This document shows positions 4,801 to 37,098 of a DNA stretch of 64,000 nt, piece after piece; position 1 is the stretch's first letter; every line of letters starts with the position of its first letter. Position numbers and translations under genes: made by a program. The notes beneath the pieces are model-generated. The model saw only the letters and a list, made by a program, of their open reading frames with translations, made no database searches and had not been told where the DNA came from. Source of the stretch: Oceaniferula flava (GTDB taxonomy: Bacteria; Verrucomicrobiota; Verrucomicrobiia; Verrucomicrobiales; Akkermansiaceae); assembly GCF_016811075.1 (NCBI RefSeq), contig NZ_JAFBGL010000001.1, positions 186,001-250,000 of the forward strand, read 5' to 3'.

Positions 4801-5823
4801 ATGAGCGATCCCATTCTTTCCATCCGCGATCTGAAAATGCACTTTCCTGTCAAAGGAGGAGTGCTCTCGCGCCAGGTGGCCGCCGTCAAAGCGGTCGATG
4901 GTGTCACGCTCGATGTCGGACGCGGCGAAACCCTCGGCCTGGTGGGCGAGTCCGGCTGTGGTAAATCTACGCTCGGAAAAAGCATCGTCCGCCTGACCAA
5001 CCCCACCTCGGGCTCGATCGAGTTTCAAGGCAAGGACATCACCAAGCTTACCCAATCCCAACTGCGCCCGATCCGCCGGAACCTGCAGATGGTTTTCCAA
5101 GATCCTGCCGAGTCGTTGAACTCGCGGATGTCAGTGGGGCAAATCATCTCGGAGCCTCTGGAGGTGCAAAAAATCGGCACCCGCGCGACGCGACGCGATT
5201 TGGTCGAGCAGCTGTTGGATCGTGTGGGCATGCCCAAAAGTGCCTCGCAGCGGTTTTCCTTCGAGTTCTCCGGTGGTCAGCGTCAACGCATCGGCATCGC
5301 CCGCGCCCTGGCACTGAACCCAGAGCTCATCGTTCTGGACGAGCCGGTGTCCGCGCTGGATGTCTCGGTGCAGAGTCAGGTGCTTAACCTGCTGCTGGAC
5401 CTGCAGGAGGAAATGAATCTCGCCTACCTGTTCATCGCCCACGATCTTGCGGTGGTGAAGCATATATCCGATCGGGTTGCTGTGATGTATCTTGGAAAAA
5501 TTGTCGAACTGGCCGATGCCGATGCCATCTACAAGAATCCCAAACACGCCTACACCAAGGCCCTGATCTCCGCGATTCCGGAGCCAGATCCAGATGCTCC
5601 GAAAGACCGGGTGCATCTCGAAGGGGAGATTCCCTCACCGATCAATCCACCCGCAGGCAGTGCCTTCGGTCACCGGATTCAGCACCCGCGCTACGAGGAA
5701 ACCATTGGCATGGACCTCGGCCTGGTGGAGCTGGAAAAAGATCACTGGGTGGCCGCCGATCCCTGCTGCCTGACCGACGACGACTACGAAAAAGCCCGCG
5801 CTTTGAAGAGCTCCGCTGTATGA
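4801..5823 (+). CDS. Peptide ABC transporter ATP-binding protein (OppF/DppF-like)
   Basis: Second ATPase of the importer, pairing with the product of the gene ending at 4796. Walker A is GESGCGKS (residues 49-56), the signature is FSGGQRQRIGIARAL, Walker B runs into DEPVSALDV, and the H-loop is in FIAHDLAVV. The C-terminal oligopeptide-transporter tail (GEIPSPINPPAG) is typical of OppF. The start ATG at 4801 lies 4 bases after the previous stop and gives the standard N-terminus MSDPILSIRDLKMHF. Starting 13 codons earlier would run into the upstream gene. Last gene of the operon. Confidence 0.93.
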   Translation: MSDPILSIRDLKMHFPVKGGVLSRQVAAVKAVDGVTLDVGRGETLGLVGESGCGKSTLGKSIVRLTNPTSGSIEFQGKDITKLTQSQLRPIRRNLQMVFQDPAESLNSRMSVGQIISEPLEVQKIGTRATRRDLVEQLLDRVGMPKSASQRFSFEFSGGQRQRIGIARALALNPELIVLDEPVSALDVSVQSQVLNLLLDLQEEMNLAYLFIAHDLAVVKHISDRVAVMYLGKIVELADADAIYKNPKHAYTKALISAIPEPDPDAPKDRVHLEGEIPSPINPPAGSAFGHRIQHPRYEETIGMDLGLVELEKDHWVAADPCCLTDDDYEKARALKSSAV

Positions 5824-29934: not shown

Positions 29935-32298
29935 TTAGTCCGCCACCTTGCCGAGCTGTTTGGTTTTGACCCAGCCGGTGGTTTCGGTGGGGGTGGTGAT
30001 GTGGGTCCAGGGGCCGCGGCTGGCGTTGACCTTGACCAGGCTGGCGGGGGCAAGCTGGGAGATCTGTGTGGAGTTGCGGTGGGCTTGATCGTGGACCGTG
30101 GCAGACTCTAACACGATGGCTTGTTGCTCGAGGGGGGCGAAGGTGTGGCCGTCCGGGTAGTAGTGGGTGGCGACAGCGCCGAGGGTGGCAATCACCGGGG
30201 TGATGGCTAAGAGAATGATGCAAACGGTGAGCACGGCCCCTTTGGGACGGCGGATGATCAGGGCCAGCACGAGCAGGCCGATGAGCCAGAGCGAGGCCTG
30301 GAGGATGAGCTGGTAGCTGCGGGGTGTCAGATAGGTGAGGAGCTTCTGCCAGCTGGCGGTTTCCGGAACTTCCGCGAGGTTTTCGATTTCGGTGAAGCGT
30401 AGGTTTTGACGGGCTTTTTGATGGCTGGGGTCGGCGCGCAAGGCTTGTCGCCAAGCGAGGGCGGCACGGCCTGGCTGATTCAGGCGATGGTGGCAGTTGC
30501 CGATGTTGTAAAGGACGTCGGCCGGGGTGTTAGACGGCTCAGGGTAGGCGGCGCGATAGAGATCGATCGCCTGCTGATAGTGACCGGTTTTCCACGCGGC
30601 TTCGGCAGTGGGTTGTGATCCTGCGTCTGTGTTAGGCGGCAGCTCTGCCTTGAGGTTCCCCAGGGTGGCGAGGCTGGTCAGGAGAATGAGGGTGAGCTTG
30701 GAGCAGCGCTTGAGCAGGCTGATGATCTCGGCTTTGCGATCGGCGGGCATCGGTGTTTTTTCCTCGGTTTCAGGTTGGAAACAAAGTTGGTCGCGCTCGC
30801 GCAGGACGGTTTCGAGCTCGGGGTTCGGGCTGAGCCATTGCTCGATGAAACGGCCTGCACGGCGGTAGAAGGTGCGGGCGTCGGCGTCCTGGGCAATTTT
30901 TTTCAATGCGGCGTCCTTGCGTTCCTGATCGGGATGCTGCACGCGGGCGGCGGAGATTTTGCGACGGATGGCGGGAGCGACGATCAGCAGGCAGAGCAAG
31001 GCGGGGATGAGCTGCCATCCCCAGCGGGAGAAGCTGTGCATGATGCCGGATGGGGCGGCGGTGTTGGGTCGATCAATGAAGCCGACGATGCCGCGCATTT
31101 CCTCCGGTGCGGTTCCAGCCTCCTCGGTGGGGCTGCTGGTCACGGCGGCGGTGGCGGGGCTGAGGGTGACGGCGATGGGATCGGTGCGGCGGGTGATGTA
31201 GCTTTTGCTGTCCGGATTGAAATAGCTGAAGGTGTAGGGGGCGATGGTCGAAGGGGGGCTGGCCACGTCCTTGGCGCGGATCAACTGGCGGAAAGTGACC
31301 AGACCACTGATCTCCCGGCGCTCCTCGCCGCGGGTAATTTTAGAGGTGTCGATGATTTTCCAAGCATCGCTGGAGAGCACGGGGGCCTTGAGGGTTTCCA
31401 GATTGCCGATGCCAGCAACGCGCAGAATGACCTCGGTGGGTTCGGTGGCCTCGAGGGTGGTTTTTTCACAGCGGGCATCGATTTCAAAGTCACCGATGGC
31501 GCCGTTGAAATCGGCAGGGGCACCGGCGGGCAGGGGCAGGATGTTGAAATTCAGCTGCGGCAGGTTCAGCTTGATCGGCACGTCGCTGATGACCGAGCCG
31601 CGACGGGGATCGATTATGGAGCGGCGCTGGTAAATGGTGAGCTCGGCCGGGCCGAGGGTGGCGATGCCGGGGCGGATGCCGCTGATGTTGGTGCTGTAGG
31701 TGACGCTGCGGTGCTGCACGCCATCGAGCTGGACCTCGCTGGTGACGTTGTCGCCCGGGGGTGAAAATCTCCATGCCAGGCAGTTCACCTTCTCCGCATC
31801 CGGGTAACCCCAGCTGGCGATGAACATGCTGCGTGGCACGTAGATTCTGAGCCAGACCTGACATTGCTCGCCCTGATAGAGGGTGGATTTTTGGGTGAAC
31901 CAGGCGGCTTTGATTTCCTGCCCAGCCACACCGGTAGGGAGCGAAATGAGCTTATCGATTGGGTGCACGGTGAAGTCCACCGGATCGGTGCGGTGCACCT
32001 TGCCATCCACGGTGATGGGGATGGCGGGCAGGGTGTAGCTACCAGCCTTGACCGGAGAGAGGCGGAAGAGGAAGGCGTAGGAAAGCCGCCGTTGGGAATC
32101 GATCTGCGTCTGGGTGCGCACGTAGTTGACCCCCACGCCATCGATCTCGGGTGTAGGCGGTCGTTGGTCGGGCTGGCCTCCGGACACTCGGACAATGACG
32201 CTGCCCTGTTCGCCCGGCAGGAGGTCCTGACTGGTGAGCGCGGACTGGACGTAGACGCTGGGCGCAGATTGCCCGTGAGCAATGCCGAGCATGCTCAA
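29935..32298 (-). CDS. BatD-BatE fusion protein (BatD domain, TPR, SH3)
   Basis: The N-terminal two thirds is BatD (periplasmic beta-sandwich region, then a membrane helix around 425-445). The C-terminal third resembles BatE: a TPR region (WKTGHYQQAIDLYRAAYP, then LYNIGNCHHRLNQPGRAALAWRQAL), two membrane helices, and an SH3-like end (AHRNSTQISQLAPASLVKV). Bat proteins are membrane proteins linked to aerotolerance or stress in Bacteroides and Leptospira. The given start is a TTG at 32298, but the frame upstream codes for a good signal peptide core (LSISIYLAIVLSMLGIAHGQ) and runs back without ATG, GTG or TTG to the batB stop codon. The true start is therefore probably a rare codon (ATT, ATC or CTG) near 32310-32330. 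See findings. Confidence 0.85.
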   Translation of the reverse strand: MSMLGIAHGQSAPSVYVQSALTSQDLLPGEQGSVIVRVSGGQPDQRPPTPEIDGVGVNYVRTQTQIDSQRRLSYAFLFRLSPVKAGSYTLPAIPITVDGKVHRTDPVDFTVHPIDKLISLPTGVAGQEIKAAWFTQKSTLYQGEQCQVWLRIYVPRSMFIASWGYPDAEKVNCLAWRFSPPGDNVTSEVQLDGVQHRSVTYSTNISGIRPGIATLGPAELTIYQRRSIIDPRRGSVISDVPIKLNLPQLNFNILPLPAGAPADFNGAIGDFEIDARCEKTTLEATEPTEVILRVAGIGNLETLKAPVLSSDAWKIIDTSKITRGEERREISGLVTFRQLIRAKDVASPPSTIAPYTFSYFNPDSKSYITRRTDPIAVTLSPATAAVTSSPTEEAGTAPEEMRGIVGFIDRPNTAAPSGIMHSFSRWGWQLIPALLCLLIVAPAIRRKISAARVQHPDQERKDAALKKIAQDADARTFYRRAGRFIEQWLSPNPELETVLRERDQLCFQPETEEKTPMPADRKAEIISLLKRCSKLTLILLTSLATLGNLKAELPPNTDAGSQPTAEAAWKTGHYQQAIDLYRAAYPEPSNTPADVLYNIGNCHHRLNQPGRAALAWRQALRADPSHQKARQNLRFTEIENLAEVPETASWQKLLTYLTPRSYQLILQASLWLIGLLVLALIIRRPKGAVLTVCIILLAITPVIATLGAVATHYYPDGHTFAPLEQQAIVLESATVHDQAHRNSTQISQLAPASLVKVNASRGPWTHITTPTETTGWVKTKQLGKVAD

Positions 32299-32358
32299 AA
32301 CGATGGCCAGGTAGATGGAAATGCTGAGGTTGATGGGGTGGAGTCTGGGTGTTGAGGA

Positions 32359-34353
32359 TTACCAGTCTTTGGCGGGGCGGCGGAGTCTGAGGAGGCGGCG
32401 CTGCACCGGGCGGGTTTCTGCGTCGGAGTTGTCCTTGAGCACGCGGGCGGCGTAGGCTTCCTCGGACTCACCTTCTTGGCGCTCCATGTCTTTGGGGTCG
32501 GGCTGCTCGCCGGACGGTGGTTGTTGGCTTTCGCGGTCGCCTTGCTCGCCTTCGCCTTGCTCGTTGGGGTCTTTGTCGTCTGACTGCTCACCTTGGTCAC
32601 CTTCTTGCTGTTCGCCGTTTTCCCCCTGCTCGCCTTCGTTGCCTTTGTCGTCCGGCTTTTCTTGATTGCCGTCGCCCGGTTGGTCATCGGGCTTCTCGCC
32701 CTGATCGGATTGCTCCTTCTCGCCTTCTTTTTCCTTGGGGTCTTGTTCGCCTTGTTGCTGCTGGTTCTGCTGCTGCTGTTGTTTTTCCTGTTCCTGCTGT
32801 TGTTGGTTTTTGAGCTCATCCAACAATTTTTGAGCAGCTTCCAAGTTGGTTGCGGCGTTGGCGTGGTTTAGGTTGAGGGCGAGGGTGGCCTGGAAGTGGT
32901 CGATGGAATCTTCCACCGCGGTGATGGCGGCGTCGAGGTCCTCGACGTGATAGGATTCCTTGTCGTCGGTGGCATCTTGCTCGGGGTTCTCGACGGGTTT
33001 GAACTGGCTCCAGCCGGTCATGAAGAGGGCGTTTCCGAGGTTGTAGTGGACCTGCTCCTGGAGCTTTGGGTTCTCGGTGAGTAAGGCGGACGAAAGGTAA
33101 TCGTTGGCGGTCTGCCAGTCCTTGAGTTTATACGCGCTGCTGCCGATGGAGAATTGGATGGCGCGGCGATCTTCGCCGGATGTGTTAGGGAGCGCCTTGC
33201 TGAACAACTTCAGTGCCTGCCGGTAGTCCTTCCGATTGTAAAAATCCTCTGCCTGTTCGATAACATTGGCAGCGGGCAGGGGGAGGCAGAGGGCGAATAA
33301 GAGCAGGGCGGTGGCGGACTTGATCGGCGGTGGCTGAGGGGTGGATTTTTTTGTCTGGCGCTTCCCTCCCGATAAAAATTCCGAGCGCACGACGATGGAT
33401 AGGGCCAGCAGTAGGATGGCGGGGATGAGGAACCACTGGAACAGCTCTTTCGGCACGGTGGTCTCGCGGCCGGCCTGTTCCTCGCGCTGGAGGGAGTCCA
33501 GTGCGGCGGCGATGGCCTTGGTGCTGCCGGAGCTGGCGGGAGTGAACTCGCCGCGGCCGGCGCGGGCGAGAGTCTGGAGGGCTTCGGGGGTCATCTGACT
33601 GAACACGGTCTGGCCTTGGCTATCGCGGTATTTGCCATCGCGGTATTCGGCGCTGGGGACCACGCCGCCAGCGGTGGTGCCGACGCCGATGGCGCAGACC
33701 ACGGTCTTGCTGCTGCGGATTTTCTCAGCGGCGAGATCAATCTTCTGTGAGTGGTCCTCGCCATCGCTGATGAGGATGAGGGCGTTCGATTTCTGCCCGG
33801 TTTTCTTGAATGCCTTCACGGCGGTATCCACGGCGGCGCTGATATCTGAGCCGCCGGAGGGGATGACGTTGGTATCGAGCTGGCTAATCGTTTCGTGCAC
33901 GGCGGCGTGATCGATGGTGAGCGGCGCCATGAGCACGGGCGCTCCGGAGAAGGCGATGACGCCGATGCGGTCGTTGGGAAAGGCATTGATCACCTCGATG
34001 GCCATGGCCTTGGCCGTGGCCATGCGATCCGGTGAGCCATCTTTGACTAACATCGATCGCGAGGTATCGATGGCGATGAGGATGTTGCGGGTGCTGATCT
34101 GCTCGGTGGTGGTGGTCTCCCCGTGGTAGGGGCGGGCGAGGGCGGTGATCAGGAAACCACACCCTAACAGGCCCAGTCCAAGCGCCACCCAACGGCGGGT
34201 TGGGGAGGACTTCTTCACCAGATGACTTTGCAAACGCGGTGCGACCATCCGTTTCCAAGCCTGTCCCTGTTTCCGCGCAGCCAGAATCGCACCCAATAAT
34301 ATAAAGGGAAGGATCAGCTGCAAGAGCAGGAGGCCGGGGTGGAGGTAGGACAT
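32359..34353 (-). CDS. BatB-BatC-like fusion: VWA domain, TPR and acidic low-complexity tail
   Basis: Two N-terminal membrane helices precede a von Willebrand A domain (about 80-300) with MIDAS motifs DTSRS and, later, SDGED. A membrane helix (about 308-330) and a second hydrophobic segment (about 345-360) follow, then TPR repeats (AEDFYNRKDYRQALKLF, VHYNLGNALFM). The last 150 residues are a glutamine/glutamate/glycine/aspartate-rich low-complexity tail. BatB and BatC are separate genes in many organisms. Their joining in one frame here fits a membrane-anchored VWA protein with a TPR arm. It lies 74 bases downstream of batA. Its TAA is in the same frame as the downstream BatD frame. Confidence 0.9.
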   Translation of the reverse strand: MSYLHPGLLLLQLILPFILLGAILAARKQGQAWKRMVAPRLQSHLVKKSSPTRRWVALGLGLLGCGFLITALARPYHGETTTTEQISTRNILIAIDTSRSMLVKDGSPDRMATAKAMAIEVINAFPNDRIGVIAFSGAPVLMAPLTIDHAAVHETISQLDTNVIPSGGSDISAAVDTAVKAFKKTGQKSNALILISDGEDHSQKIDLAAEKIRSSKTVVCAIGVGTTAGGVVPSAEYRDGKYRDSQGQTVFSQMTPEALQTLARAGRGEFTPASSGSTKAIAAALDSLQREEQAGRETTVPKELFQWFLIPAILLLALSIVVRSEFLSGGKRQTKKSTPQPPPIKSATALLLFALCLPLPAANVIEQAEDFYNRKDYRQALKLFSKALPNTSGEDRRAIQFSIGSSAYKLKDWQTANDYLSSALLTENPKLQEQVHYNLGNALFMTGWSQFKPVENPEQDATDDKESYHVEDLDAAITAVEDSIDHFQATLALNLNHANAATNLEAAQKLLDELKNQQQQEQEKQQQQQNQQQQGEQDPKEKEGEKEQSDQGEKPDDQPGDGNQEKPDDKGNEGEQGENGEQQEGDQGEQSDDKDPNEQGEGEQGDRESQQPPSGEQPDPKDMERQEGESEEAYAARVLKDNSDAETRPVQRRLLRLRRPAKDW

Positions 34354-34426: not shown

Positions 34427-35425
34427 TTAGGGCGCCGGTTGGGGTTTGAGGGCTTGGATGGTGAGGGCGGCGGTGGCCAGCAGGAAGGAGGCACCGAGGA
34501 ACCAGGGGAAGTATTCCTTGGTGGTGACGATACGATGCTGCTTGATCTCGGTTTTTTCAAGCTGATCGATCGAGTCGAATGTCTCGCGGAGCTTCTCGGT
34601 ATCGCGCACGCGGTAATACTCGCCGCCGGTGATCTTGGCGATTTTCTCCAAGGTTTCGGTATCGAACTCTTTTTGCGGGTGAGACTGCATCCCGTTGCGG
34701 AGTCGGCCGTCCTCGGTGCCGATGGCGACCGCATACACTTTGACGCCGAGCTTCGCGGCGTGTTCGGCGGCCTCGACGGGGGAGAGTCGGCCTGAGTTGT
34801 TCGAGCCATCGGTGACCAGAACAACCACCTTGCTCTTCGCTTCGCGGTCGTGCAGGCGGGTGGCGGAGGCGGCGATGGCGGAACCGATGGCCGTGCCTTG
34901 TTCGCGGACCAGACCGGGTTGGAGTTGGCGGAGCTGCTCGATGAGCCAATCGTGCTCTAGGGTGATCGGACTGGTGACGTAGGGTCGACCTGAAAAGGCG
35001 ACGATGCCAATGCGATCGCTGGGGCGTTGGTTGATAAAACTCTCGGCAGTGGCCTTGGCGGCGACGATGCGTTGCACCCGGCGATTGTTCAGTTGGAAAT
35101 CAATGATCTCCATCGAGTAGGAGATGTCGATGGCGAGCACGATATCGATGCCGCTGGCTTTGCGGTTAGAGAACGAATGTTGCTGCTGCGGGCGGGCAAG
35201 TGCGATGATGGCGCAGGCGAGGGCGAGCACCATCAGGGTGAAGGTGAAGGCTCCGGGGGCACGCCGTGGTTTCTGTCCCAGGCTGACCAGGATGGAGAGC
35301 GAGGAATAAGTGATCGACGATGGCGAACCGGCTTTGTTGCGCAAGAACAGCAGCGGGGTGAGCAGGGGGAGACCAATCAGCCACCATGGCTGAGCGAGAG
35401 TGAGGTTCTGGAGGAAATCAAACAT
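34427..35425 (-). CDS. batA: BatA-like VWA domain membrane protein
   Basis: 332 residues. The N-terminal membrane segment (about residues 14-30) and a second one (about 60-80) precede a VWA domain (about 90-290). MIDAS residues are visible in AIDISYSM (DxSxS) and VTDGSNNSG. A C-terminal membrane helix (about 308-325, WFLGASFLLATAALTIQAL) ends the protein. BatA and BatB probably form a complex in the inner membrane facing the periplasm. It lies 17 bases downstream of the DUF4381-like gene and 74 bases upstream of the BatB-BatC gene. Confidence 0.92.
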   Translation of the reverse strand: MFDFLQNLTLAQPWWLIGLPLLTPLLFLRNKAGSPSSITYSSLSILVSLGQKPRRAPGAFTFTLMVLALACAIIALARPQQQHSFSNRKASGIDIVLAIDISYSMEIIDFQLNNRRVQRIVAAKATAESFINQRPSDRIGIVAFSGRPYVTSPITLEHDWLIEQLRQLQPGLVREQGTAIGSAIAASATRLHDREAKSKVVVLVTDGSNNSGRLSPVEAAEHAAKLGVKVYAVAIGTEDGRLRNGMQSHPQKEFDTETLEKIAKITGGEYYRVRDTEKLRETFDSIDQLEKTEIKQHRIVTTKEYFPWFLGASFLLATAALTIQALKPQPAP

Positions 35426-35442: not shown

Positions 35443-35943
35443 TCAGGTGGTTTCAGGGCTGACGTTGATTTCGATATTGGCTAACAGCTCTTCGGCCTCC
35501 TCGATGAGTTGAACCGGTTCCGCGCTGTGGACGGGGGCGTATTTCAGCTGGGACAGCTGGCTGAGGTGGGCGGTGACGGGCTCGCGGGAGTCGGGGTGAA
35601 GTTTGTTCAGAGCGTCATGGCGCAGGGTGAACTCCTCGTTGGTTTCGAAGAGGGCGGGGTCTTTGAACGCGGCTTCGAGGTAGCGGCGAATGATCAGGGA
35701 GATGCGGGTAGCTGTGACGTGGGGCGGGAGCTTGGGCGATTCCTCTTTCAGCTTGTGGAGGCTGGCGCGGGCATCGTCTAACAGGTTGGCGCGGGTTTTG
35801 GCGGGGTTGGGTTTGAAAATCAGCCAGGCGACCAAGGCCAAGATCATCAGGACACCGATGCCCACCAGGGCCCAGAGCCACCATGGGGTGTTGGGTTCGG
35901 GGAGGAATTCACCGGGTGGGGTGATGTCTTCGATCGGTGGCAT
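35443..35943 (-). CDS. DUF4381-like single-pass membrane protein of the Bat operon
   Basis: 166 residues with a short N-terminal proline-rich part (MPPIEDITPPGEFLPEP), one membrane helix (about 20-45, WWLWALVGIGVLMILALVAWLIF) and a helical cytoplasmic region. This layout and its place between a DUF58 gene and batA match the DUF4381 proteins that accompany MoxR/VWA clusters. Function unknown, but the constant gene neighbourhood suggests an assembly or accessory role. Separated from the upstream DUF58 gene by 264 bases, which hold a hairpin element and a tandem repeat. Confidence 0.85.
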   Translation of the reverse strand: MPPIEDITPPGEFLPEPNTPWWLWALVGIGVLMILALVAWLIFKPNPAKTRANLLDDARASLHKLKEESPKLPPHVTATRISLIIRRYLEAAFKDPALFETNEEFTLRHDALNKLHPDSREPVTAHLSQLSQLKYAPVHSAEPVQLIEEAEELLANIEINVSPETT

Positions 35944-36207: not shown

Positions 36208-37098
36208 TCAGGAGTTTCTTCGGCGGGTGCGGGTTTTGAAGAGGCGGTGGAGGGCTGGGAGGTAGTCGGCGTCGGTGCTGAGATTGAGGTGATCGATGCC
36301 TTGTTGTTTAAATAGGCGGGTGATGCCTTCGCGGTTTCGGCGGGTTAATTTGCTGAAGCCCATGCGGAGGTTGCTATTGTTGGTGTTGACCGTGGTTTGC
36401 CATCCGGTTTCCGGATCGGTGAGGTTGACGGTGCCGATGCGTGGCAGTTCCTCATCCAGGGGATCTGTGACACGGAGCGCGATGGTATCGTGTTTGCACG
36501 CCAGAGCACCGAGGGGCTTTTTGAGGTCGTGGGCAAAGAAATCGGAGACCATGAAGATCAGCGATTTGCGTTTCACGGTGTGCAGTAAGAAATTGCAAGC
36601 TCCGGGGATGGAGGTTCGCTTGTCCTCCGGGTCGGCGCTGAGGATCTCCCTGACCATGCGCAGGATGTGGCGGGTTCCCTTGGCCGGGGGCAGGAACATG
36701 ATCGGCTCGTTGGCGAACAGCAGCAGGCCGGTTTTATCGCCATTGTAGTTGGCGCTGAAGGCTAGCAGAGCGGCCAGTTCGGCGGCCAGTTCACGTTTGC
36801 TGAGGTGGGAGCTGCCGAACAGGCTGGAACCGGAAACATCGATGGCGAGGATCACCGCCAGTTCACGCTCCTCGCGGAAGGTTCGGATGTATGGGGTGTC
36901 CTTGCGGGCGGTGACATTCCAATCGATAAAGCGAGTCTCGTCCCCGTGCTGATACTCCCGGTAGTCCTCGAAATCGAGCCCGCTGCCCTTGAACGATGAA
37001 TGATACTCGCCGCTGAAGGTTTCGCGCGCCAAGCGGCGGGCCTTGATCTCCAGCCGGTGCACGCGGCGCATGATTTCATCGATGGAGTCAGGTGTCAT
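36208..37098 (-). CDS. DUF58 domain protein (VWA-like), Bat-operon associated
   Basis: 296 residues of the DUF58 family, whose members carry a VWA-like fold and accompany MoxR AAA ATPases. Signature segments are GLDFEDYREYQHGDETRFIDWNVTARKDTPYIRTF (the family's R-x-Y and IDW motif) and LAIDVSGSSLFGS, a degenerate MIDAS DxSxS. Usually the upstream gene is moxR. Here the upstream neighbour is mrp instead, only 81 bases away, so the MoxR partner must be elsewhere or absent. It is followed by the DUF4381-like gene and batA, making it the first gene of the Bat group in the window. Confidence 0.92.
   Translation of the reverse strand: MTPDSIDEIMRRVHRLEIKARRLARETFSGEYHSSFKGSGLDFEDYREYQHGDETRFIDWNVTARKDTPYIRTFREERELAVILAIDVSGSSLFGSSHLSKRELAAELAALLAFSANYNGDKTGLLLFANEPIMFLPPAKGTRHILRMVREILSADPEDKRTSIPGACNFLLHTVKRKSLIFMVSDFFAHDLKKPLGALACKHDTIALRVTDPLDEELPRIGTVNLTDPETGWQTTVNTNNSNLRMGFSKLTRRNREGITRLFKQQGIDHLNLSTDADYLPALHRLFKTRTRRRNS

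Follow-up and report, generated by a model that had tools for sequence, protein, structure and literature searches.

We find that the batD gene in a stretch of Oceaniferula flava DNA (family Akkermansiaceae; the whole stretch, 64,000 nucleotides long, is called the window here) probably begins translation at an AUC codon. The gene lies on the minus strand, as do all other window features described below, and the proposed start is the ATC at 32332..32334, located 24 nt past the batB stop codon. Initiation at this codon would give (f)MNLSISIYLAIVLSMLGIAHG, with Q as the first residue after a cleavage site placed by eye. The assignment draws on comparison with relatives and on scoring of the nucleotides that surround start codons.

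The batB stop codon (TAA, 32359..32361, preceded by TGG) is followed by a 24-nt leader (32335..32358) that contains a single G and no Shine-Dalgarno (SD) motif. The batD coding sequence then extends from the ATC to its own stop codon (29935..32334). Past the TAA, the batB frame reads SSTPRLHPINLSISIYLAIV, then L (TTG, 32298-32296), S (AGC), M (ATG, 32292-32290), and LGIAHGQ (CTC GGC ATT GCT CAC GGG CAA). Judged by inspection and hydropathy, the hydrophobic residues that lead to GIAHGQ resemble a signal peptide with a cleavage site. A first-pass annotation of the window had remarked that the core of this signal peptide is encoded upstream of the TTG at 32298, that the batB TAA is in the same frame, and that no ATG, GTG, or TTG lies between them; sequence and translation confirm each of these points, because none of the 20 intervening codons is canonical. 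The identity of the protein is supported by a match to the BatD domain (PF13584, 42.3 bits against a cut-off of 24.1), by a C-terminal TPR region in which TPR_1 and TPR_2 exceed their cut-offs, and by a frame that is open in relatives. Its gene context is also that of the BatD family, with DUF58, DUF4381, VWA (BatA), and VWA (BatB) genes directly upstream. On its 717-kb contig (469 predicted genes), batD tied with prfB for the highest score (5.2 each) in a scan that ranked genes by how strongly the sequence ahead of their first canonical start looks coding. It was also one of eight genes there that were flagged because a hydrophobic core lies at their first canonical start or above it; another of the eight (C1:659891) has a GTG.

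We compared the junction among 14 genomes of the genus (G000, the window genome, and G001 to G013). A batD query matched 11 of them, and in 10 the match is a batD gene behind batB, in some cases cut by a contig end. Four of these 10 loci (G000, G012, G008, and G009) have no ATG, GTG, or TTG from the batB stop to the hydrophobic core; the first in-frame canonical codon after that stop is at +1276 nt in G012 and at +328 nt in G009. The BatD proteins of G012, G008, and G009 are 49-55% identical to that of G000, and their frames run for at least 800 codons with no internal stop. The remaining six loci have ATG (G004, G005, and G006), GTG (G001 and G002), or GTG/TTG (G013). A canonical start was present in 58 of 58 readable loci from the family's other genera. 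This test was lenient, as it accepted any canonical codon from 25 codons before to three codons after the start of the core; one locus (L178) passed only through a TTG 24 codons away, and another (L191) only through a GTG at the core itself. The 58 loci come from a sample of 59, composed of best hits and a hand-picked spread of genera out of 228 genomes with a match (own genus included), from which one locus was dropped because its frame was not found. A BatD protein search of named genomes returned no relative. In a tree of BatD proteins, G000, G012, and G008 form one clade (support 99/97), and G009 groups with G005 and G006 (94/95). The first-pass annotation had reasoned that an ATG at this junction in related strains would point to a sequencing or assembly error. 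Canonical codons do occur there in six genus members, but their absence is common to the G000/G012/G008 clade and G009. We therefore regard a batD start codon other than ATG, GTG, or TTG as conserved in these four genomes, to judge from their sequences, and not in the other six.

Several features point to the ATC within this region. In G000, G012, G008, and G009, the spacing from the batB stop to the ATC is 24, 25, 30, and 16 nt, respectively, and the distance from the ATC to the Q after the predicted cleavage site is 20-22 codons, counting both. The equivalent length is 20 codons from the ATG of G004 and from the GTG of G001 and G002. In the closest pair, G012 and G008, nucleotide identity at the three codon positions rises at the ATC, from 0/0.2/0.2 over five upstream codons to 0.65/0.85/0.8 over 20 downstream ones. 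We also built a profile of start context from 90 ATG starts of G000 that could be assigned with confidence, covering 30 nt upstream of the codon and 9 nt after it, with percentiles calculated by leaving one out. The G000 ATC scores 4.4, the 63rd percentile of true starts, and is the sole one-base neighbor of ATG in the leader with a start-like score. In G008, the ATC is at the 90th percentile and is the best of the near-cognate codons.

The strongest support for the ATC start of batD comes from a second gene, which we consider an independent and cleaner case on comparative grounds. The same upstream-coding scan, applied to a second contig, found a minus-strand gene at G000:C2:393397-395202 (L249) whose product is a membrane protein with a BatA domain (PF07584; its 33.1 bits exceed the cut-off of 25.9). 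The gene begins TAA CCA CGA CCT CCC ATC AAC CTC ATC CTC ACC AAC, where TAA is the stop codon of the upstream gene, and it shares the words CCC ATC AAC CTC with the start of batD in G000. No canonical codon occurs before a GTG at 31 codons in, which lies past the first hydrophobic segment. The gene was matched in 10 of the 14 genus genomes; G003, with a weak and partial match, was left out, and the match in G013 carries one in-frame stop. The proposed start is ATC (seven genomes) or ATT (two) in all nine genus members with a full match. By contrast, 20 of 20 readable loci in other genera have ATG, TTG, or GTG at that place, eight of them as the ATG of MN[LIV]; these come from a sample of 21 loci, out of 73 other-genus genomes with a match. 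Amino-acid identity within the genus jumps from 7% over the eight codons that precede the ATC/ATT to 100% at the ATC/ATT itself, and is 72% over the following eight codons and 78% beyond them. Nucleotide identity by codon position is 0.31/0.29/0.34 before the start codon and 0.79/0.92/0.48 after it. This step in conservation implies that coding begins at the AUC/AUU, and the codon is the best-scoring near-cognate in seven of the nine genomes. An in-frame ATG 57 nt upstream, present in G008 alone, was rejected: it lies inside the upstream gene, out of that gene's frame, and scores -6.6 (0th percentile).

A number of observations weigh against the proposed starts of the two genes. For batD, the signal regions of G013, G005, and G006 are longer than 20-22 codons, and in G000 and G009 a signal peptide counted from the ATC lacks a basic residue (lysine or arginine) ahead of the core. 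A conservation step at the ATC is absent from the other five pairs of the four species. The ATC of G012 is at the 41st percentile, where a neighboring ATC, an ACG, and a CTG inside batB tie with it (41st-42nd); that of G009, also at the 41st, is outscored by a later ATC (47th) and by a CTG inside batB (63rd). Leader codons 4-11 of G000 all score as start-like, so context alone cannot choose among them. In both G012 and G009, batB contains an ATG in the BatD frame, 65 nt from its end, which scores at the 7th and 16th percentiles, respectively. Because G009 sits with the ATG-using G005 and G006 in the tree, its ATC may be a separate event. For six of the relatives, a DNA pattern scan returned loci identical around the start, all in metagenome assemblies from Akkermansiaceae/Verrucomicrobiales. 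For the BatA-domain gene, the context in G009 is only at the 19th percentile, a preceding ATT scores higher in G004, and in both G013 and G004 the start codon is doubled, such that either copy could be used.

Some of these observations fit a different proposal, in which BatD starts at another leader codon near the ATC (for example, one with good context that is not near-cognate) or, for certain species, within batB, reached perhaps by ribosomes sliding from the batB stop. The start-like scores of G000 codons 4-11 are compatible with this proposal, as are the near-cognates that equal or outscore the ATC in G012 and G009, and a start at or before the AGA at codon 5 would place an arginine ahead of the core. 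On the other side, the candidate that all four species share, at similar distances from the cleavage site, is the ATC, and conservation in the BatA-domain gene begins at its ATC/ATT. Codons that are not near-cognate also initiate very poorly in E. coli. On balance, we consider another leader codon to be an unlikely start, though the most credible of the alternatives. The batB-internal ATG of G012 and G009 was rejected as a common start, because it arises from GAT-GCA (D-A codons of batB), has poor context, and is in a situation that differs from that of G000 and G008, where the frame of BatD relative to batB is not the same. An overlapping start at this ATG in G012 and G009 only is possible.

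The first-pass annotation had listed a rare start codon (such as ATT, ATC, or CTG), readthrough or reinitiation from BatB, and a truncated start at the TTG as options. Relatives and context favor the first, and specifically the ATC at 32334-32332. Readthrough of the batB TAA would produce a BatB-BatD fusion in which the signal peptide serves as an internal membrane helix. It would suit the shared frame of batB and batD in G000, G008, and G004, and the BatA-domain gene of G000 likewise lies 12 nt past the stop of its upstream neighbor and shares that neighbor's frame. However, the offset of batD from the batB frame is 0, 1, 0, and 1 in G000, G012, G008, and G009, and the out-of-frame loci of G012 and G009 still lack a canonical start after the batB stop. 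Because this frame varies between species, rather than being conserved across the stop, readthrough cannot be the common answer. Codons ahead of the proposed starts are also not conserved, either in batD (the five before the ATC, G012 versus G008) or in the BatA-domain gene (7%), and in G008 the latter gene lies 16 nt past the upstream stop and out of frame. We thus judge readthrough to be very improbable, whereas reinitiation at the ATC may occur, and the 16-30 nt spacing agrees with it.

A start at the TTG at 32298 (or the ATG at 32292; together 32290..32298), yielding a truncated signal, seems equally improbable. These are the first canonical codons in the BatD frame, but both lie within the hydrophobic core and score -4.2 (1st percentile of true starts), resembling codons inside genes. 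Moreover, G012 and G009 have no canonical codon there, and a hydrophobic, signal-like N-terminus, as judged by eye, is kept across the genus loci. Finally, a sequencing or assembly error or a decaying gene is scarcely credible: although six relatives are metagenome assemblies, three more species with long open frames and diverged BatD proteins lack a canonical batD start, and ATC/ATT recurs at the start of the BatA-domain gene in all nine fully matched genus members.

To gauge how common such starts are, we can turn to scans of 726 predicted genes (1.12 Mb of the 3.95-Mb genome), which yielded batD, the BatA-domain gene, a TIGR03862 flavoprotein gene, and prfB. The last was recovered as a control through its programmed +1 frameshift site (G000:C1, minus strand, upstream of and within 136658-137644). 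The flavoprotein gene has a CTG start in G000 (G000:C1:298971-300191, minus strand; L112) and in G009 (L115), where the match carries one in-frame stop; the other eight readable loci in the genus have TTG or ATG (10 of 11 loci were readable). Further high scorers on C2 were at 58-480 (6.6, at the contig start), 203227-205230 (4.5), and 280229-281395 (3.0). An SNF2-type helicase gene (G000:C2:86599-89259), whose upstream sequence looks coding and includes an ATC, was discarded: that sequence is not conserved in the genus loci, where conservation sets in at a canonical GTG/ATG or close to one. Scoring of coding extensions misses true starts that are few codons above the first canonical codon, and the count is therefore a lower bound. 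In addition, infC starts with ATA behind AAGGAG in six of six genus genomes examined (the G000 copy is at L072, G000:C2:465000-475000, near 4820-4875), and non-canonical starts thus appear to work in this genus.

A survey of 114 orthologue pairs between G000 and G009 flagged 23, of which we took four as real: batD and the BatA-domain gene (both genomes), DUF4381 (G009 only), and prfB (both, frameshift). The DUF4381 gene in the bat operon of G009 (L341, G009:C8, near 13300) has no canonical start near its beginning, where TAA is followed by CTG ... CTG AAA ACA ATC. By eye, the other 19 flagged pairs are alignments that run into the leader or N-termini that could not be resolved. The survey sought a canonical codon from 40 codons before to eight after, a lenient window, and the 91 pairs left unflagged may hide further cases. 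Domain labels, listed for the pairs of two regions, mark at least six of the 114 as Bat-type genes. By post hoc arithmetic, three of three non-canonical cases would fall among six such genes by chance in about 1 in 10,000 draws, a figure that overstates the association if the set holds more Bat-type genes and that leaves aside the flavoprotein gene, which is outside the pair set and is not a Bat gene.

The lineage does not seem to rely on SD pairing. When the first canonical codon of each predicted gene on G000:C1 is taken as its start, the 342 genes with ATG show no enrichment of SD motifs (5-mers 2% versus 2% in the control, 4-mers 6% versus 7%). These motifs are slightly commoner before the 66 GTG starts (5-mers 6% versus 2%, 4-mers 12% versus 8%). 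The region from -30 to -1 of the 90 confident ATG starts contains 16% G, versus 28% inside genes; G-poor upstream sequence is a general start signature in G000. Akkermansia is listed as SD-scarce in PMC10783764. The anticodon stem of the initiator tRNA also departs from the usual GGG/CCC: it is AGG/CCU in 12 of the 14 genus genomes (for example, G000:C14:154-170); none was found in G007. The sole GGG/CCC found in the genus belongs to G010 (G010:C178:6446-6462, L218), on a contig that may be foreign DNA. A pattern that allows either stem matched 170 of 195 family genomes, and among the matches listed, all but G010 have AGG/CCU. The altered tRNA was rejected as the cause of the start-codon change: the stem occurs through the family, at least among those matches, yet the other-genus batD loci examined have canonical starts. 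It cannot by itself explain a genus-level change and is at most a permissive background.

Most likely, AUC and AUU are read by the ordinary initiator tRNA. Under this proposal, the tRNA would tolerate a mismatch at the third base and BatD would begin with fMet. Initiation would need no SD sequence, only an open, G-poor leader, and the short spacing suggests that ribosomes that have just terminated on batB, 24 nt upstream, would supply the initiation events. Such coupling fits a start that lies a short distance past the upstream stop, which for batD is 16-30 nt in all four species. In a reconstituted system described in PMC10158994, the third base is the only position at which IF3 accepts non-Watson-Crick pairs, and it accepts mismatches much less than wobble pairs; more IF3 lowers the use of weak pairs such as AUU/CAU. 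IF3 disfavors third-base mismatches, and AUC/AUU starts should therefore be weak. Initiation on batD may accordingly be weak and IF3-sensitive, holding BatD output low relative to BatB. Overexpressed IF3 also lowers reinitiation in E. coli, as described in PMC2268962. Two points make this mechanism harder to accept: AUC against the anticodon CAU is a C-C mismatch, and the relevant passages of PMC10158994 describe very little product from mismatch pairs with IF3 in vitro, without specifying AUC/CAU. We tentatively extend the proposal to the suggestion, which may well prove too broad, that the genus uses AUC/AUU (and CUG) as regular minor, SD-less starts, chiefly in membrane Bat/VWA genes that directly follow a stop codon. 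If true, the weak codon would be a built-in throttle, with output set by the ribosomes arriving from the upstream gene and by the level of IF3, and Bat membrane proteins would be tied to the state of the translation machinery.

The genes upstream of batD complete the cluster. Immediately upstream is batB (32359..34353), which encodes a VWA domain (PF13519 VWA_2 exceeds its cut-off) and a TPR-like region (TPR_2, 22.3 bits, below the cut-off of 27). It is preceded by three genes with ATG starts: batA (34427..35425), with a VWA domain (PF00092) and a PF07584 BatA match of 25.6 bits, just below the cut-off of 25.9; a DUF4381 gene (35443..35943; PF14316, 26.4 bits, just below the cut-off of 27.2); and a DUF58 gene (36208..37098; PF01882, 268.6 bits).

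Few non-canonical starts have been characterized in bacteria, according to PMC5472188, and gene finders limited to ATG, GTG, and TTG cannot call them. With such programs, BatD would lose 12 residues, over half of its signal peptide, and the BatA-domain protein would lose 31, its first hydrophobic segment among them. The relatives constitute a natural experiment, with ATG, TTG, or GTG in other genera and ATC or ATT in this one. They make it feasible to test whether SD-independent initiation relaxes the choice of start codon and whether IF3 controls genes besides its own. Our search of the open-access literature (titles and abstract openings), which lacks most subscription journals, turned up no publication that describes AUC/AUU starts in Bat genes or in Verrucomicrobiota.

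The closest known parallels are infC and sigR. The infC gene, which encodes IF3 and starts with AUU, AUC, or AUA, resembles batD in having a start outside ATG, GTG, and TTG that is conserved between species; the codon is ATT in E. coli and ATC in Streptomyces (PMC5472188). The two differ in that infC of this genus keeps a strong AAGGAG, whereas a strong compensating SD of the infC and sigR kind is absent before both batD and the BatA-domain gene of G000. Also, the autoregulation of infC by IF3 has no obvious counterpart in Bat genes. In Streptomyces, sigR starts with GTC in 32 of 34 species and with GTT in two, IF3 restricts the non-canonical starts of both infC and sigR, and the GTC of sigR keeps one operon member low (PMC5472188). 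The sigR start resembles the ATC (seven) and ATT (two) of the BatA-domain gene in being non-canonical across a genus, and its setting of the dose of one operon member against another can be likened to the low output proposed for BatD. However, unlike the SD-less batD, sigR is preceded by an extended ribosome-binding site, AGGAGGTG, and its response to IF3 has been tested. Termination-reinitiation within operons provides a second parallel, given the position of batD 16-30 nt past a stop in four species and of the BatA-domain gene 12 nt past one in G000, but known coupled genes normally use canonical starts. The third parallel is the SD-scarce initiation of Bacteroidota and Akkermansia, which G000 shares in lacking SD enrichment at ATG starts; the literature on it, as represented by PMC10783764, concerns AUG starts and not the identity of the start codon. 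Taken together, these comparisons suggest that batD has a conserved non-canonical start of the infC and sigR kind, but one that is SD-less and close behind a stop codon.

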